A stretch of DNA of 55,970 nucleotides from an uncultured Clostridia bacterium. GTDB lineage: Bacteria; Bacillota; Clostridia; Oscillospirales; Oscillospiraceae. How positions within the stretch are numbered: the stretch's first letter is position 1; every line of letters starts with the position of its first letter. The position numbers and the translations under genes are program-made. The stretch is from contig CAMHMK010000002.1 of the NCBI GenBank assembly GCA_946186225.1, positions 1 to 55,970 of the forward strand. Reading direction: 5' to 3'. Shown here piece by piece: positions 24,130 to 32,610 of this stretch. The notes under the pieces were generated by a model, which made no database searches, was not told where the DNA came from, and saw only the letters and a program-made list of their open reading frames with translations.

Positions 24130-26769
24130 TCAAGTCTCGGACGGCTCTGGCTCCAGTTCCGAAGGCTCCGGAGGCGTGACGTCCCGCTCGGCAGATCTTG
24201 CCTCCTCCAGCGCGGCGCCGAGGGCCTGCAGCTGTTCAAGCGTGTGAACCGGGCAGTAGGTCAGGTGGTTTTCTGCAAGTGCAGCTTCCAGGGATGCGCC
24301 GTTGTCAGCCTCGCCGTCCTTGTAGACGACGATCTTCTTGCTCTCCATTTCGTTGACCGCGTAGCTGAGCAGGGAAGGATATTTCGCCGCAAGTGCCTGG
24401 AACTCCGCGCTGGTCACGAGGTTGTGGTAGGCGGCGCAGTAGGTGCCGCAGCAGTAGGCGGTCCCGCTCTTGCCGTCCGGATAGCAGAGCTGGACGTCAA
24501 AGCCCGCGTGGTTGGTACAGGTGACCTTCGGCACGTCGGATTCAAAGAGCTGAATCGATTTGCCCTGGCAGAGCGGGCCTGCCAGCAGGCCGGTTTGGTT
24601 ACAGACCGTGCAGTAGACCATCTTCTCATCCGTCGGCATTTCAAAATCGCCGATTTCTTCCTTGGGAACCGCCTCATACAGGGAGGTCATGACGGCCTTC
24701 CACATCAGGGACGAGGGGTTGAGATTGACGACCGGGCGGACCTCCTCGGGGTTGTCGAATCCGCACCAGACCGAGGCCGTATACTTGGGCGTGAAACCGC
24801 AGAACCAGCGGTCACGGTTGCTGGAGGTGGTACCCGTCTTGCCCGCGCAGGGAACGCCGGGCACCTGGGCCGGCGTACCGGTGCCGTACTGGCAGGCGTA
24901 ATGCAGCATGCTAACCATATACCAGGCGGCGTGGGGGTCCATGGCGGAGTTGGTCTTCTGGGTGTTGTCGAGGACCACGCGGCCTTCGCTGTCCACGACC
25001 TTGGTATAGGTTCTGCCCTGGCGGTAGACGCCGCCGTTGGGGAAGGTGGCGTAGGCAGAGGCCATTTCGCGGACGGTCAGGCCGTGGGTCAACTGGCCCA
25101 TGCCGAGCGGGGCCAGGGAAACGTCGGTGAAGGTAGTGCCGTTGATCTCCTCGGTCTCCACCAGGCTATTGAGCATGAAGTGCTCCTTGGCAAAGGCGAA
25201 GCTCTTTTCCGGGGTCACGTCCGCAAGAACCTTGACCGCGATGGTGTTCAGAGACTGGGCGACGCCGTAGTTGACGATCATCCAGCCGGAGTAGCGGCGG
25301 GTCTCGTTCTGGGGCCAGTCCCTGCCGTCGATCTTCGTATAGGGGGAATCCTCATAGGCCGAGCCCGGGGTGATGATCCCCATGGCAAGGGCCGGACCGT
25401 AGACCGTGAGCGGCTTGATGGAGGAGCCCGGAGACAGACGGCTCTGCGTGGCGCGGTTCAGGGTCAGGTTGCCCTTCTTCTCCCCCACACCGCCGGCCAT
25501 GGCGACGATGTCGCCGGTCTCGTTATCGATCACGATAATGGCGGACTGCATCTGCTGAGAGGAATACGTGGCCGGGACATTTGCCGGATCGGAGTAGATT
25601 GCGTCCACCTTGGCCTGGGCCTCCAGGTCGATGGTGGAATAGATGATGAAGCCGCCGGTCGTGACCATCTGGCTGGCAGCCTCGGTGCTGAGCTCCAGCT
25701 TGGCTGCAAGGTCCCGCGTCACGTCGCGGATGACCTGATCCTCGAAGTAGGTGTAGTAGTCGGGTTCCTCGACGTTGAACTGGTTCCGGTGCTCGCAGAC
25801 CGGACAGACGTAGTAGTCTCCGTCCTCGGTGTACTCATCGATCTCATCCTCGAAGCCGCATTCTTCGCAGGTGAAGGTCTGATTGGGCAGGACCAGACTC
25901 TTGAACTCGAGCTCCTGGTCGCAGACAGCGTCATAGTCCTCGTCCTCAATATAGCCCTGCTCATGCATCTGCTGAAGGATGGTCAGCGTACGCTTTTCGT
26001 TGTTCTTCGGATAGATATAAGGATCGTAGAGCGAGGGGTTGTTGGTGATGCCGATGATGCAGGCGCATTCCTTGGGTGTGAGCTCATCGAGCTCCTTGCC
26101 GAAGTAGATGTTCGCGGCGCTCTTGACGCCGTAGGCGCCTTCGCCCAGGAAGATCGTGTTAAGATACCATTCCAGGATTTCCTCCTTGGTATAGTGCTTC
26201 TCAAAATCCAGGGCACGGTAAATCTCCATGAGCTTTCGGCGGACCGTAACCTCCTTGTCCTGGCTCAGATTCTTGATGAGCTGCTGGGTGATCGTGGAGC
26301 CTCCGTAGGTGGAGCCGCCGATGAACATATTGGCGGATGCCGCCAGCGTTCGCATCCAGTCCACGCCGTCATGCTCCCAGAAGCGCTTGTCCTCGATGGC
26401 GACCGCAGCGTTGACCAGATCGACAGGGATCTGATCATAGCTGACCCAGATTCGGTTCTCGACCGCAAGCAGCTGGCGCAGCTCCTCATATTCGCCGGTC
26501 TTGGGGTTTTTGGCATAAATAAAGGAAGTTTGGTTCAGCCGCTGCCCCTCCAGGGTGTAGTGGGCCTGCGGCTCAATGAAATCCGTGAGGTAGTTCATCG
26601 TCCGGTTGAGCAGCTTATAACCCGCAACGCCGCCGCTGATGCCGACGGTGGCGGAAATCAGCATGGCTGTTGCGACGAATAGCCACAGGACATGGATGAT
26701 CCGTCCGGTGATGGTCCGCTGGTGCGGATCCCGGACTTTCTTCCGTTTCAGATTGTTGCGCTCGTGCAT
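24130..26769 (-). CDS. Class A penicillin-binding protein with zinc-ribbon-like insert
   Basis: A bifunctional peptidoglycan synthase of about 879 residues. One N-terminal membrane anchor (residues 25-50) is followed by the GT51 glycosyltransferase domain, with EDKRFWEHDG carrying the catalytic Glu and STITQQLIKN. The transpeptidase has SSIK (S449, K452), SLN and KTGTT. Unusually, a CxxC-x17-CxxC module (C301, C304, C322, C325) lies between the two domains. The C-terminal tail has further cysteines, including CTVCNQTG and a YCCGTYC cluster. ATG at 26769 follows GGGAGG; an upstream in-frame start is less likely. It heads a ten-gene minus-strand directon. Confidence 0.88.
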   Translation of the reverse strand: MHERNNLKRKKVRDPHQRTITGRIIHVLWLFVATAMLISATVGISGGVAGYKLLNRTMNYLTDFIEPQAHYTLEGQRLNQTSFIYAKNPKTGEYEELRQLLAVENRIWVSYDQIPVDLVNAAVAIEDKRFWEHDGVDWMRTLAASANMFIGGSTYGGSTITQQLIKNLSQDKEVTVRRKLMEIYRALDFEKHYTKEEILEWYLNTIFLGEGAYGVKSAANIYFGKELDELTPKECACIIGITNNPSLYDPYIYPKNNEKRTLTILQQMHEQGYIEDEDYDAVCDQELEFKSLVLPNQTFTCEECGFEDEIDEYTEDGDYYVCPVCEHRNQFNVEEPDYYTYFEDQVIRDVTRDLAAKLELSTEAASQMVTTGGFIIYSTIDLEAQAKVDAIYSDPANVPATYSSQQMQSAIIVIDNETGDIVAMAGGVGEKKGNLTLNRATQSRLSPGSSIKPLTVYGPALAMGIITPGSAYEDSPYTKIDGRDWPQNETRRYSGWMIVNYGVAQSLNTIAVKVLADVTPEKSFAFAKEHFMLNSLVETEEINGTTFTDVSLAPLGMGQLTHGLTVREMASAYATFPNGGVYRQGRTYTKVVDSEGRVVLDNTQKTNSAMDPHAAWYMVSMLHYACQYGTGTPAQVPGVPCAGKTGTTSSNRDRWFCGFTPKYTASVWCGFDNPEEVRPVVNLNPSSLMWKAVMTSLYEAVPKEEIGDFEMPTDEKMVYCTVCNQTGLLAGPLCQGKSIQLFESDVPKVTCTNHAGFDVQLCYPDGKSGTAYCCGTYCAAYHNLVTSAEFQALAAKYPSLLSYAVNEMESKKIVVYKDGEADNGASLEAALAENHLTYCPVHTLEQLQALGAALEEARSAERDVTPPEPSELEPEPSET

Positions 26770-26835
26770 ATCGTTTCCTCCCAAGGTGGCAGAGGCGGTT
26801 GGTCCTAAGCTTTCGTGCCTAGTTTATCAAATTAT

Positions 26836-26927: not shown

Positions 26928-26962
26928 AAAGACGGTTCCATGCACTGCATGGAACCGTCTTT
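26928..26962 (-). terminator. Terminator after rplS
   Basis: A near-perfect 17-bp stem, AAAGACGGTTCCATGCA (26928-26944) with TGCATGGAACCGTCTTT (26946-26962), is followed on the minus strand by GCGTCTTTTCG. It separates rplS from the PBP promoter. Confidence 0.8.
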
Positions 26963-26977
26963 GCAACGGGTATTGAA

Positions 26978-27462: not shown

Positions 27463-28584
27463 TCAGTTTTTTTCAAGAATCTTCAAGGCGGGCAGGGCCT
27501 TGCCCTCGTAGTCGAACAGGGCCTGATTGGCCCACTCGTTGCCGCCCGGGCCGGCCTCCCGGACATAGGCCAGACCCGCTGGCGTCGTCCATCCGGATCC
27601 GGGAACCGGGAGCCAGGCGGGCTCCCACCAGATCAGGCCGCGGCCCAGGTCGTGGGGCGTTTGACGGATCGTTTGCCAGAGGTCCCGCAGAAAGGCCGCC
27701 TGACCTCCTGGCGTGATCGGGTACTCTGTGCGGTCGGCCAGACTTGGGCCGACGGCGAGGCCTCGCTTTTGATCGGGACGCAGGCCCTCATAGGCGCTGC
27801 AGTCCTCCAGCGTGAAGGCTGTGGAGGTCTCTGCCACGATCAGGGGCTTGCCCCAGCGCTCGGCCAGCGCATGCAGATTCCCGCGCAGGTCGGCAAGGGT
27901 GCCATGCCAGAACGGGTAGTAGCTCAGGCCAATGCAGTCGAAGTCCGCCCCGCCGTGGGCGGAATACTGCTCGAACCATTCGCGGTAGAGGCTCTGATTG
28001 CCGCCGTTGTCCAGGTGAAGCATCACGGACGCGGTCGGGGCCGTGTCACGGACTGCGCGGACCCCCGCGGATACAAAACGTGTCAGATTCTCCCAGGCCG
28101 GAACCCTGCCCAGCGGCCAGAGCAGGCCGTTGGAGAGCTCGTTCCCCGGTGCGACCAGGTCCGGCAGCAAATCCGCGTCCCGAAGCGCAGTCATGGTACG
28201 GGCAGTGTAGTCGTAGACCGCCTGTTCCAGGCCTTCGACATCAAGGTCCGCCCAGGCCTTCGGCGGGTATTGCTTGCCGGGGTCGGCCCAGAAATCGGAA
28301 TAGTGGAAGTCCAGCATCCACGGCAAGCCCAGGGCCTTTGCCCGGGCTGCCAGGCAGATGGTGGCGGCCAGGTCATTTGTGCCCGCGCCGTAGGCTCTGC
28401 CCAGCTCGTCATAAGGATCGTTCCACAGGCGGAGGCGGATCAGGTTCCAGCCGTGGCGGGAGAGGATCACCGGCGCAGCCTCCGCAGAGTCGCTGCCGAA
28501 ATCGAAGAAGGCTCCGCCGCAGGCCTCGACCTCTTCCAGCGAGGAGAGATCGACGCCGCAGATCAGGGTGTGCTGCAGGTCCAT
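27463..28584 (-). CDS. Cytoplasmic GH53 endo-beta-1,4-galactanase
   Basis: A 373-residue GH53 enzyme without a signal peptide. The barrel start (GVDLSSLEEVEACGG), RLRLWNDPYDELGRAYGAG, DFHYSDFWADPGKQ, the acid/base Glu in VAPGNELSNG and the nucleophile Glu in LIVAETSTAF are all present. It would cut imported beta-1,4-galactooligosaccharides. I chose ATG at 28584 behind AGGTGG; a GTG three codons earlier is an alternative. It is the last gene of the galactanase operon. Having one secreted and one internal GH53 divides polymer and oligomer cleavage between compartments. Confidence 0.87.
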   Translation of the reverse strand: MDLQHTLICGVDLSSLEEVEACGGAFFDFGSDSAEAAPVILSRHGWNLIRLRLWNDPYDELGRAYGAGTNDLAATICLAARAKALGLPWMLDFHYSDFWADPGKQYPPKAWADLDVEGLEQAVYDYTARTMTALRDADLLPDLVAPGNELSNGLLWPLGRVPAWENLTRFVSAGVRAVRDTAPTASVMLHLDNGGNQSLYREWFEQYSAHGGADFDCIGLSYYPFWHGTLADLRGNLHALAERWGKPLIVAETSTAFTLEDCSAYEGLRPDQKRGLAVGPSLADRTEYPITPGGQAAFLRDLWQTIRQTPHDLGRGLIWWEPAWLPVPGSGWTTPAGLAYVREAGPGGNEWANQALFDYEGKALPALKILEKN

Positions 28585-28593
28585 CCCGGCCAC

Positions 28594-28812
28594 CTATTGC
28601 TCGTCCTCGAAGGTGAAGCGCCTGAACATCGCACCGTAGCGGAATCGGGCCATCTCGTTCTTCTCCAGGACCTCGGCTTCGTTGCCGCGGAACTGGCAGC
28701 GGAGACAGTAGAATTCATCCTTTTCCCTGTCATAGAACAGATCCATATCGATGTCCCGCATAAAGCAGGACGGGCAGCGGTAGTTTAGTCTGCCCTTTCC
28801 AGCCTGAGCCAT
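28594..28812 (-). CDS. Small zinc-ribbon protein, unknown
   Basis: A 72-residue protein with two CxxC pairs (CPSC and CLRC, about 23 residues apart), probably one zinc ribbon, followed by a charged helix (NEAEVLEKNEMARFRYG). A strong AAAGGAGGT ribosome site lies 10 bases before ATG 28812. The gene overlaps the end of the preceding enzyme gene by 28 bases and precedes the GH53 gene by 9 bases. It is therefore a real, co-translated member of the galactan operon, with unknown role. Confidence 0.7.
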   Translation of the reverse strand: MAQAGKGRLNYRCPSCFMRDIDMDLFYDREKDEFYCLRCQFRGNEAEVLEKNEMARFRYGAMFRRFTFEDEQ

Positions 28813-30623
28813 GTGGTAAAGACCTCCTTTTCTGCGCATTCGCGCTCATAACCGAGGGTAAACATCGGGCTGAATGCATAGCCCTCGCGAACAAAGCCGA
28901 CGCGTTCGCCATCCGCCCGCAGGGTAATGCGGGTGCGGATCGGCGGCAGGGTGCAGGAGACAGACTCGGCATTTGCAGCGCTCGCCTCCCGGCATTCATA
29001 GTGATAGGGAATGACGGTGCTCTCCTCCCCTGCTTCCACACGCAAGGTCAGGGACGTCATATCCTCGGGGTATTCGGTGGTGCCATAGGACGCGGTGATG
29101 TATTCGCGGATCGTCACGGTTTCGTTCGGGTCGGACATAGAGAGGATCCGTCGCTCATAGCGGATCTCGCCGCTGCCCTCGGGGAAGGTGACAACGGTCT
29201 GGAGCCGGACGGTCAGGCCGCCCTCGAAGGCGATCTCCACCGGGTCCAGGGTCAAACGGCGTTCCCCGCCCTCGTGGGTGAAATGGGCCTTTGTGCGGCA
29301 GAGACAGAGGTCCACCTCTTCCCCATTCCAGCACACCTTGGCCGAGCGGACCGTGCCCTCGCCCGCATAGTGAGTAAAGTAGCCTGCGCGGTACTTCTCC
29401 TGAATCAGATAGGGATAGGAGGCATTCTGAACGTGGGGGGTGCCGATACCGACCGGCCATTCCAACTTGGCGGCATAGGGACGCAGGTCCACAATGGCGC
29501 CGCCCTGGTCCATGTTGACGCAGGCACGGAGCCAGGGGTCGCAATACCAGAAGAGCTGCTTGTCAGAGCCGTAGAGGATGTCCCGCCAGAGCGCACACTC
29601 CGGGGTGGAGTAGGACTTCTCAGCGCGGTATCGGTCCGCCAGCTCGGACATCGTCAGGTCCTCCAGTCTGCCCTCCCGCTTGAGCTTGCCATAGTAGGCG
29701 CAGCCGTCCTCGTAGGACTTGAGCAGAAGCGCATAGGGCTGCTCCCAGCGGCCCATCTTATTCATCCAGCCGGGGCCGACAAACATCATGTTGTAGGCCC
29801 AGCCGTCGTTGTATCGTGCCAGACTGCGGTATTGGTCGATCAGGTTGTAAAGGTAAGGATATTCCCAGGTCTTTGTGTCGTAGATCATCCCGCGCAGGAC
29901 ATTCTGGGGGTGTGTGCCGAAGTTGGACCCGTTGCCGTCATAGCAGGCCAGCAGATCCCGGCTCAGGTGCGGGATGGCGACAATGCCGCTGTCCTCGGCT
30001 TCGTTGGCGGCCGGCGCGTGGGTGTTGGCCTTGGAGGGAATCCAAGGCGCCCAGGGACCGCCATCGAGGAAGGTATACCAGGAGTTGTTGCAGGTGTGGT
30101 AGGCCTTGGGTCCCTCCTCCCAGCAGGTAGCGACGGCACACTTCACGGTGGGGTACTCGGCCTTGATGTAGTTGATCAGATCAGCGTCCATATAATAGGA
30201 GCCGGTGGATTCGGGATAGAAGCCGAAGCAGTCGTGGAACTTTTCAAATACATCCCGGACGATGCGGCGCTTGTCCTCCATCGAAAACATCCAGATGCAG
30301 AAGTCCTTGGTCTTGTATTTCTCGCGAAATTGCTCGCAGGGCAGGCCAAGGAGGGTCAGGCCGATCTCGTCGCCGAATTCGGCGTGATGTGCCTTGGCAA
30401 GCACCACGGCCTCGGCATTGAAGAGGCTGGCATAGGTCATCTGGATTGTGGCTTTCAGGCCGTTTTTGTGGGCGACAGCCTGTTGGGTCTTGAAAATATC
30501 CAGGCTTTCGTTGAGCAGAGCCTCACGGCCGAGGTTTTCCTCCTTGCCGTGGCCTGTGACCTTTTCCGCGTATTCCGGCACCATCTCGGGCCGGTGAATC
30601 AGGTTCAATAACAGCTTATTCAT
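28785..30623 (-). CDS. Unassigned putative carbohydrate-active enzyme in galactan operon
   Basis: A 612-residue soluble protein without a signal peptide. The N-terminal 350 residues alternate beta/alpha elements like a deacetylase or GH38/57-type barrel. They contain conserved-looking acidic and aromatic patches (STGSYYMDADLINYI, CWEEGPKAYHTCNNSWY, AIPHLSRDLLA). The C-terminal 230 residues are beta-rich, suggesting a beta-sandwich. I do not recognise the family. It sits between the two GH53 genes, and no beta-galactosidase (GH2, GH35, GH42) occurs in the locus. It could therefore be the enzyme that releases galactose from short galactosides; this is inference. ATG at 30623 follows ACGGAGAAT. 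Confidence 0.6.
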   Translation of the reverse strand: MNKLLLNLIHRPEMVPEYAEKVTGHGKEENLGREALLNESLDIFKTQQAVAHKNGLKATIQMTYASLFNAEAVVLAKAHHAEFGDEIGLTLLGLPCEQFREKYKTKDFCIWMFSMEDKRRIVRDVFEKFHDCFGFYPESTGSYYMDADLINYIKAEYPTVKCAVATCWEEGPKAYHTCNNSWYTFLDGGPWAPWIPSKANTHAPAANEAEDSGIVAIPHLSRDLLACYDGNGSNFGTHPQNVLRGMIYDTKTWEYPYLYNLIDQYRSLARYNDGWAYNMMFVGPGWMNKMGRWEQPYALLLKSYEDGCAYYGKLKREGRLEDLTMSELADRYRAEKSYSTPECALWRDILYGSDKQLFWYCDPWLRACVNMDQGGAIVDLRPYAAKLEWPVGIGTPHVQNASYPYLIQEKYRAGYFTHYAGEGTVRSAKVCWNGEEVDLCLCRTKAHFTHEGGERRLTLDPVEIAFEGGLTVRLQTVVTFPEGSGEIRYERRILSMSDPNETVTIREYITASYGTTEYPEDMTSLTLRVEAGEESTVIPYHYECREASAANAESVSCTLPPIRTRITLRADGERVGFVREGYAFSPMFTLGYERECAEKEVFTTWLRLERAD

Positions 30624-30654
30624 TGTATTCTCCGTTTTCTCGTGAGGATGGACC

Positions 30655-32610
30655 TCAGCGAAGGCTGAGGCTGGCGTCATCGATCTTGCCCCACGCACCG
30701 GCGTTGGGGGCCTTGACATAGATGCCGACGGTCATGGTCTGGCCGGCCTCATAGGCGACGCCGCTGACCGTGCCGGGGTGCCATTCGTTCCAGGCTGTGA
30801 TCTCCATTGGGGCAGTGTCGACAATCGTCCCATCGATTTTCACATAGGCATAGACCTCGGCTGCGCCGCAATCGCCGCCCATGATGTAGATCGTGAAATC
30901 GTAGGTTCCGGTCTCCAGTCCCTCCGGCGTCTGCTCGAGGGTGAACTCGACCTTGTCGGCGGTTTCGCTCCAGAAATGCCAGTGCCATTCACCGGTGCGG
31001 GAGTCGCCGGCCTTCTGCTCCGGGAACAGGTCCGGACAGCCGCCCAGGTTTTCAACCACCCAGGGAGTGCCCACACCGTCCTCGAAGGAGGGGTTGGAGA
31101 GCAGGTTCACGTTCTCAACCGTCAGATGCAGTCTGGCGGTCTGGCCCTCGGCCGTGCCGCTGATCTCATAATCCCCGGGCAACTGCAGCTCACTGAGGTC
31201 CGCATCCCAGGTGACGGGGACGGTCTTTCGGCTGCCATCGGTCAAAACAGCCTCCGCAGTCTCGGGGAGGACGACAGGCTCGCCCACCGTCAGGCGCAGG
31301 GAGGCGTCCGCAATGCGCTCGACGCGTAGCTCGGTCTCGTTGCCCCAGCGGATCAGGTTGAATGCCTTGAGGCCCTCCATAACGTGGCCCTTGGAGTCGA
31401 AGAAGGACTGATTATCCACAGCGCAGCCTCCGTACCACTTACCGGCGTCGTCCGGGTCATATTCCGCCGCGTAGGAGGAGGCCCAGCCGGAGCCGTATTT
31501 CTCCCAAAGGGCCTGATTCTCCTCTCTGGACGCGCCGCCAACGGAGATCCAGGTTCCCTCCCAATAGCAGACGCCGATGCCGCCAGCATCCGCCACGGCC
31601 TGGGTCACGGCCCGCAGGCTGTTGACCTGTCCCTGCTGCGTATAGGGATAGGGCTGGTCGACACTGCTCTCATCGGAGATCGTATTGCCGGAGAAATCGG
31701 AATCCTCGCCCGTCCAGGCGTAGGAGGTCTCCAGAACCATCACCTGCTTGCCGAAATTCAGGCGGATCTTCTTGAGACTGTCGGTCAGGTTTTCCAGACT
31801 TCCGTGCCAGTAGGGATAGTAGGAGGAGCCGAAGACGTCATAGTCCAGGCCGTTGTCCCGCAGCGCGCGGGCATAGTCCGGATAGACGCCGTTTTCCGGG
31901 TTGGCAAAGTGGACCGCCACCTTGGCCTCCGGGAAGACCTCCCGGACGGCCTTGGAGCCGGCGGACATCAGACGAACGACATTCGGCCAGGTGGTTTCGC
32001 CGCACATTGCGCCGTTGGTCTCGTTGCCCACCTGGACCATGCCCACGTTCACACCCGCCTGCTTCAGCTTCTGCAGACTCTCCCGGGTGAACTGCTCCAA
32101 GGCGGAAGCCTTGGCATCCAGATCCATATCCTTCCAGGCCTTCGGGACCATCTGCTTGCCGGGGTCCGCCCAGAAGTCGGAATAGTGGAAGTCCACCAGC
32201 AGCTTCATGCCGTATTTGGTTGCGCGGCGTCCGATCTCCAGCGCGGTGTCAATGTTGCAGTTGCCGCCGCCATAGCCGTGGCCATCCGCATCAAAGGGGT
32301 CGTTCCAGACGCGTACGCGGATATAGTTGACGCCGCTTTGAGCCAGTATTCTAAAGACGTCAGTCTCAGCACCGTCGAAATCGTAATACTTGACGCCGCT
32401 GGCCTCTAAGGACGGAACCTGGGAGGCATCCATGCCGAAGATAAAATCCTCGGGAAGTCCTTCGACGGCTTTGATATAGAGGCTGCAGCCCTCCAGCTTC
32501 GCCTTCGGGGCGACGTCCTCCACCTGTATGGTGGTGTTATCGCTGCCGCAGGCGCTCAGAAGGCTCAACGCCAGGAAAAGCACTAGAATACGCGCAAGCT
32601 TGGTTCGCAT
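30655..32610 (-). CDS. Secreted lipoprotein GH53 galactanase with Ig-like and CBM61-like domains
   Basis: A 651-residue exported enzyme. A signal peptide with lipobox LSAC (C21) anchors it outside the membrane. The GH53 domain (about 55-430) carries the acid/base Glu E197 in VQVGNETNG and the nucleophile E294 in VLETSYAW. Next comes a BIG4-type Ig-like domain (about 440-505; PVTWDADLSELQLPGDYEISG). The C-terminal 140 residues look like CBM61, a beta-1,4-galactan binder found behind GH53 in other bacteria. The enzyme would cut pectic galactan at the cell surface. It heads the four-gene operon opposite the AraC regulator. Confidence 0.88.
   Translation of the reverse strand: MRTKLARILVLFLALSLLSACGSDNTTIQVEDVAPKAKLEGCSLYIKAVEGLPEDFIFGMDASQVPSLEASGVKYYDFDGAETDVFRILAQSGVNYIRVRVWNDPFDADGHGYGGGNCNIDTALEIGRRATKYGMKLLVDFHYSDFWADPGKQMVPKAWKDMDLDAKASALEQFTRESLQKLKQAGVNVGMVQVGNETNGAMCGETTWPNVVRLMSAGSKAVREVFPEAKVAVHFANPENGVYPDYARALRDNGLDYDVFGSSYYPYWHGSLENLTDSLKKIRLNFGKQVMVLETSYAWTGEDSDFSGNTISDESSVDQPYPYTQQGQVNSLRAVTQAVADAGGIGVCYWEGTWISVGGASREENQALWEKYGSGWASSYAAEYDPDDAGKWYGGCAVDNQSFFDSKGHVMEGLKAFNLIRWGNETELRVERIADASLRLTVGEPVVLPETAEAVLTDGSRKTVPVTWDADLSELQLPGDYEISGTAEGQTARLHLTVENVNLLSNPSFEDGVGTPWVVENLGGCPDLFPEQKAGDSRTGEWHWHFWSETADKVEFTLEQTPEGLETGTYDFTIYIMGGDCGAAEVYAYVKIDGTIVDTAPMEITAWNEWHPGTVSGVAYEAGQTMTVGIYVKAPNAGAWGKIDDASLSLR

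Follow-up and report, generated by a model that had tools for sequence, protein, structure and literature searches.

A class A penicillin-binding protein (PBP) from an uncultured, rumen-type member of the Oscillospiraceae carries a four-cysteine, zinc-ribbon-like module between its glycosyltransferase (GT) and transpeptidase (TP) domains. Its gene lies in a 55,970-nucleotide stretch of DNA (the window; assembly GCA_946186225.1, contig CAMHMK010000002.1, positions 1 to 55,970). The module, first pointed out in a preliminary description of this DNA, is real: Pfam places it between the Transgly (PF00912) and Transpeptidase (PF00905) domains, and its cysteines are encoded at 25795–25869. Judging from motif, profile and modelling evidence, the insert is very probably a structural Zn(Cys)4 ribbon.

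Gene and domain architecture

The PBP gene (24130..26769, minus strand) encodes 879 residues from an ATG at 26769 and was assigned by Pfam, Foldseek and TIGR02074. Its open reading frame (24130–26784, minus strand) opens at a TTG that overlaps the Shine-Dalgarno sequence (minus strand, TTGGGAGGAAACGATATG); the ATG, five codons after TTG 26784, is the better start, and the residue numbers given earlier for the four cysteines (C301, C304, C322 and C325) are exact when counted from it. Upstream lies rplS, separated from the PBP gene by a terminator-like hairpin predicted from the sequence at ~26930–26966, and downstream lies an rRNA-methyltransferase-like gene. A few genes upstream, an 81-aa ORF (28594–28839, minus strand) with the pattern CPSC...CLRC encodes a small zinc-ribbon-like protein that gave no Pfam match. 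Two genes of GH53, the endo-beta-1,4-galactanase family (27463–28593 and 30655–32610, minus strand), stand on either side of a 644-aa ORF (28785–30719) that likewise has no Pfam match, and the three together look like a galactan-use cluster.

From its basic N-terminus, the encoded protein runs through a single transmembrane helix, the GT51 domain, the linker and the transpeptidase to a C-terminal region rich in cysteine and a final Pro/Glu tail. The transmembrane helix (approximately residues 25–52; 26614..26697, minus strand) was placed by sequence and coincides with a modelled helix at residues 20–68; it follows a basic cytosolic tail (KRKKVRDPHQR, then IIHVLWLFVATAMLISATVGISGG), and the portion of the protein after it is extracytoplasmic. 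The GT51 domain (residues 97–269; 25963..26481, minus strand; PF00912, E-value 1.3e-58, 197.8 bits against a cut-off of 27) and the transpeptidase domain (residues 410–668 with motifs S449xxK, S506xN and K644TG; 24766..25542, minus strand; PF00905, 3.4e-31, 109 bits against 22.1) occur in one chain, the arrangement that defines a class A PBP. Catalytic residues E126/D127, S449xxK452, S506xN508 and K644TG are intact and invariant in 41 PBPs. The protein narrowly misses the curated cut-off of TIGR02074 (PBP_1a_fam; 494.2 versus 508.75 bits), and the best Foldseek matches of its full-length model are Staphylococcus aureus PBP2, Escherichia coli PBP1b and Listeria monocytogenes PBP4. Exactly one GT51 protein, the ribbon PBP, was found in 21 of 23 genomes of the genus, the two genomes without a match being the least complete of the 23; as the sole GT51 protein, it probably serves as the principal synthase with both activities.

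The cysteine-rich C-terminal region (24244..24603, minus strand) contains two C...C...CxxH repeats, C723/C734/C751/H754 and C762/C778/C839/H842, which are possibly two further metal sites or disulfides. It matches no Pfam family and is modelled with mostly good confidence, and C723, C734 and C751 are invariant in the 41 PBPs, ribbonless ones included. The preliminary description had mentioned these tail cysteines together with the insert. They are real and conserved (C723, C734, C751, C762, C778 and C839) but not part of the ribbon feature, because they also occur in PBPs that have no ribbon.

Position and conservation of the insert

Comparison with ribbonless PBPs and the confidence profile of the model place the module at approximately residues 292–337 (25759..25896, minus strand), with the Cys4 ribbon core at residues 298–331. 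It takes the place of about 10 residues of ordinary linker, the ribbonless proteins reading ..ELVF-(about 10 aa)-YYSYFVD... The first knuckle is CEEC (25858..25869, minus strand), formed by C301 (codon 25867–25869) and C304 (25858–25860), and the second is CPVC (25795..25806, minus strand), formed by C322 (25804–25806) and C325 (25795–25797).

All four cysteines are kept in 21/21 PBPs of the genus, a set that includes the window's own protein and whose other members are 57–92% identical to it. Both TGC and TGT are in use at each of the four cysteine positions among these 21 proteins, and only 1 of the 29 non-cysteine columns of the ribbon core is invariant, the other 28 varying. The pN/pS of the ribbon is 0.43, a constrained value that is higher than the 0.34 of the transpeptidase domain and lower than the 0.52 of the tail. 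The C-P-x-C of the second knuckle is invariant in A1 and A3, nearly all carriers have CPxC, and an NQFxVE segment just after C325 is conserved within the genus. Absence of the insert from close homologs, or cysteines that are not conserved, was looked for as evidence against the feature; instead, every one of the 21 same-genus PBPs and those of several further genera keep the module. A chance pattern or artefact is ruled out by its intact presence in 21 same-genus assemblies and in these further genera.

Distribution across genera

By HMM search, at least five Oscillospiraceae genera have PBPs with the module, namely that of the window (g1), g43, g50, g242 and g252; one g43 member matches Candidatus Faecousia faecigallinarum. 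Among 401 genomes sampled from the family, carriers amount to about 30 genomes and 5/106 genera, both of them lower bounds. The homologous modules of the other carrier genera occupy the same GT–TP junction, all four cysteines are present in every such carrier read, and the first knuckle ranges from CxxC to Cx4C. In g252 (L121, L122), a long acidic loop rich in Glu splits the two knuckles, yet both are intact; ligands that come together at a single metal would predict this. This loop amounts to a natural test that the four cysteines act together. In another protein, L135 (genome G765), repeats of segments of the ITQEEYD / VTQEEYD type appear to have lengthened the linker ahead of the ribbon.

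About 30 other sampled genera of the family or order have only ~2–20 residues at this site, as judged by gaps between BLAST pieces, and the linkers inspected in other genera (L022–L029) are without the cysteine pairs; two of these, L022 and L023, from two genera, are longer and contain no cysteine. A general Oscillospirales trait is ruled out by these short sites and by linkers lacking the pairs. The preliminary description had proposed a check of conservation in Oscillospirales PBPs; the module does recur in several genera, but the breadth implied there is too wide for a feature found in 5/106 sampled genera of one family, even as a lower bound. Class- and phylum-wide samples yielded no PBP carriers, the matches there being NrdD-like or others without any sign of a PBP. 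One match in G1059 and two in g210, in frames of 900–950 aa, had no PBP linker when read. In a maximum-likelihood tree of 50 PBPs, where the ribbonless rows are few and long-branched, one change explains the ribbon and the separating branch is weakly supported (60/5); a single gain is compatible with this tree, not proven.

Predicted fold and metal binding

Cys4 zinc ribbons have two CxxC or Cx4C knuckles ~10–25 residues apart, the second typically CPxCG. The window's PBP shows this pattern as CxxC-x17-CPxC, and the two knuckles are present in all carriers, with a much longer loop in g252. Profile searches of the PDB with the insert returned zinc fingers, zinc ribbons, archaeal small zinc proteins and rubredoxins with modest E-values, and Pfam scans made member by member matched many zinc-ribbon families; the window's own insert exceeded the cut-off of no Pfam zinc-ribbon family, the best being zf-Sec23_Sec24 at 23.3 versus 25 bits. 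With hhalign, the insert matched the Cys4 site of class III ribonucleotide reductase (NrdD), a site that binds Zn, at 96% probability.

A full-length AlphaFold2 model built from 41 sequences has a mean pLDDT of 85. The ribbon within it scores 81–88 and forms four short strands at residues 298–321, and pLDDT falls below 50 at residues 291–296 and 334–338, the very borders of the insertion relative to ribbonless PBPs. In this picture the ribbon would be a bead that folds by itself, with a hinge at each end. For the isolated insert, prediction from a single sequence was of low quality (pLDDT 53). Metal binding, one of the functions initially suggested for the insert, is a prediction for which motif, profiles and full-length model all provide good support.

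Discussion

The ribbon PBP would combine a known fold, the zinc ribbon, with a known enzyme class, in a place where another insert already matters. Small accessory domains outside the catalytic domains are familiar from class A PBPs: the UB2H domain of E. coli PBP1b is one, but it precedes the GT domain, has a different fold and contains no zinc. In Clostridioides difficile PBP1, a small globular domain of 66 aa named GI, whose location has been likened to that of UB2H, follows the GT domain near the GT–TP linker; its deletion (residues 267–328) abolishes PBP1 function with protein level and localisation kept, and it is reported in Peptostreptococcaceae and relatives (PMC12539705). The ribbon resembles GI as a small, lineage-restricted insertion after the GT domain of a class A PBP in anaerobic Bacillota, and we liken the two by position (~292–337, after a GT domain at 97–269). 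The ribbon differs in being ~45 aa long and in occurring in Oscillospiraceae, and the main text of the GI paper is without the word 'zinc' (PMC12539705).

Zinc itself is known from class B PBPs, with Zn2+-binding described for C. difficile PBP2, PBP3 and SpoVD (PMC9334274) and for Acinetobacter baumannii PBP2 (PMC9974482). These proteins and, if our prediction holds, the ribbon PBP share extracytoplasmic protein-bound zinc. The class B sites, however, bind the metal through one His together with Cys/Asp ligands, within the TP domain and beside the active site, whereas the Cys4 set described here sits in a ribbon of its own between the two catalytic domains of a class A enzyme and lies outside the transpeptidase domain, where the X of SxN is not a cysteine because the motif reads S506-L507-N508. 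The CxxC...CPxCG pattern is shared with the C-terminal Cys4 site of NrdD and with Pfam Zn_ribbon families, but those are cytosolic, and the ribbon of the window's PBP is part of an exported protein and scores below every curated family cut-off. Our search of the searchable literature, outside which most subscription papers lie, turned up no description of a PBP that contains a zinc ribbon, interdomain ribbons of class A enzymes included.

How might such a module work? The most economical role is that of a metal-stabilised spacer or hinge, and, reasoning from sequence and model, we lean modestly towards a Zn(Cys)4 ribbon that serves as a spacer between the GT and TP domains. A zinc ribbon would have been spliced into the short GT–TP linker of the genome's only detected GT51 enzyme; after export, its two knuckles would bind one Zn2+ in the reducing surroundings of an anaerobe, and the metal would give cohesion, without disulfides, to a mini-domain of ~35 residues flanked by two short hinges. 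The module could then be a rigid spacer determining how far, and at what angle, the transpeptidase head extends from the membrane-bound glycosyltransferase, and it may secondarily serve for docking. Outside the cysteines the surface of the ribbon is poorly conserved, which is easier to reconcile with a structural spacer than with a conserved site for a partner.

Since GI is required for PBP1 function, such inserts can be essential, which makes docking or regulation the main rival to a spacer. The ribbon would then be chiefly a docking or allosteric platform through which a divisome or elongasome partner activates the GT or TP domain, in the manner of GI or UB2H. We regard this as possible, though clearly the less likely role: the GI domain, likewise placed after the GT domain near the linker, is indispensable for PBP1 function in C. 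difficile (PMC12539705), the sole class A PBP found in these genomes could need such control, and the NQFxVE conserved within the genus after the second knuckle could mean a docking surface, but the ribbon outside its four cysteines diverges fast, its length varies among genera, and no candidate partner gene was identified. More doubtful still is the proposal that zinc occupancy, or a dedicated partner, at this lineage-specific ribbon couples glycan polymerisation to cross-linking in the single class A PBP; if true, this would be a new way of regulating bifunctional PBPs in this rumen and gut group of Oscillospiraceae.

Disulfides that sense redox state had been raised in the preliminary description. 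That the four cysteines form disulfides, stabilising the linker or sensing redox state or oxygen, is disfavoured to the point of being improbable. The cysteines are extracytoplasmic and paired as CxxC, and an equivalent-sounding motif of Bacillus subtilis SpoVD was earlier predicted to form a disulfide, but SpoVD has been shown to bind Zn2+ (PMC9334274). Neither DsbA (PF01323) nor DsbD/CcdA (PF02683) was matched in the window's genome, an absence that is not absolute because the genome is ~90% complete, and DsbA was found in only 1/23 genomes of the genus. The CPxCG knuckle and a first-knuckle spacing of 2 or 4 are features of zinc knuckles rather than of disulfides. With no DsbA or DsbD match and a CPxCG knuckle, zinc is more likely than disulfides. 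Least probable of all is a rubredoxin-like iron site, or a loosely held zinc through which the cell-wall machinery would be informed of metal supply: the hosts are anaerobes and several rubredoxins appear among the PDB profile matches, but only as weak ones, the 17-residue spacing in this PBP-embedded module is shorter than the ~29 residues of typical rubredoxins, and a partner domain for electron transfer was not seen.

Antibiotics target class A PBPs, and it is in accessory domains such as UB2H and GI that these enzymes are regulated. A zinc ribbon between the catalytic domains of the sole class A PBP detected in a cell would add a further type of accessory module and would place a fold that depends on metal outside an anaerobic cell, in a part of the enzyme that is compact and directly testable. 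The ribbon may also be relevant to the effect of gut zinc sequestration on the cell walls of these commensals.
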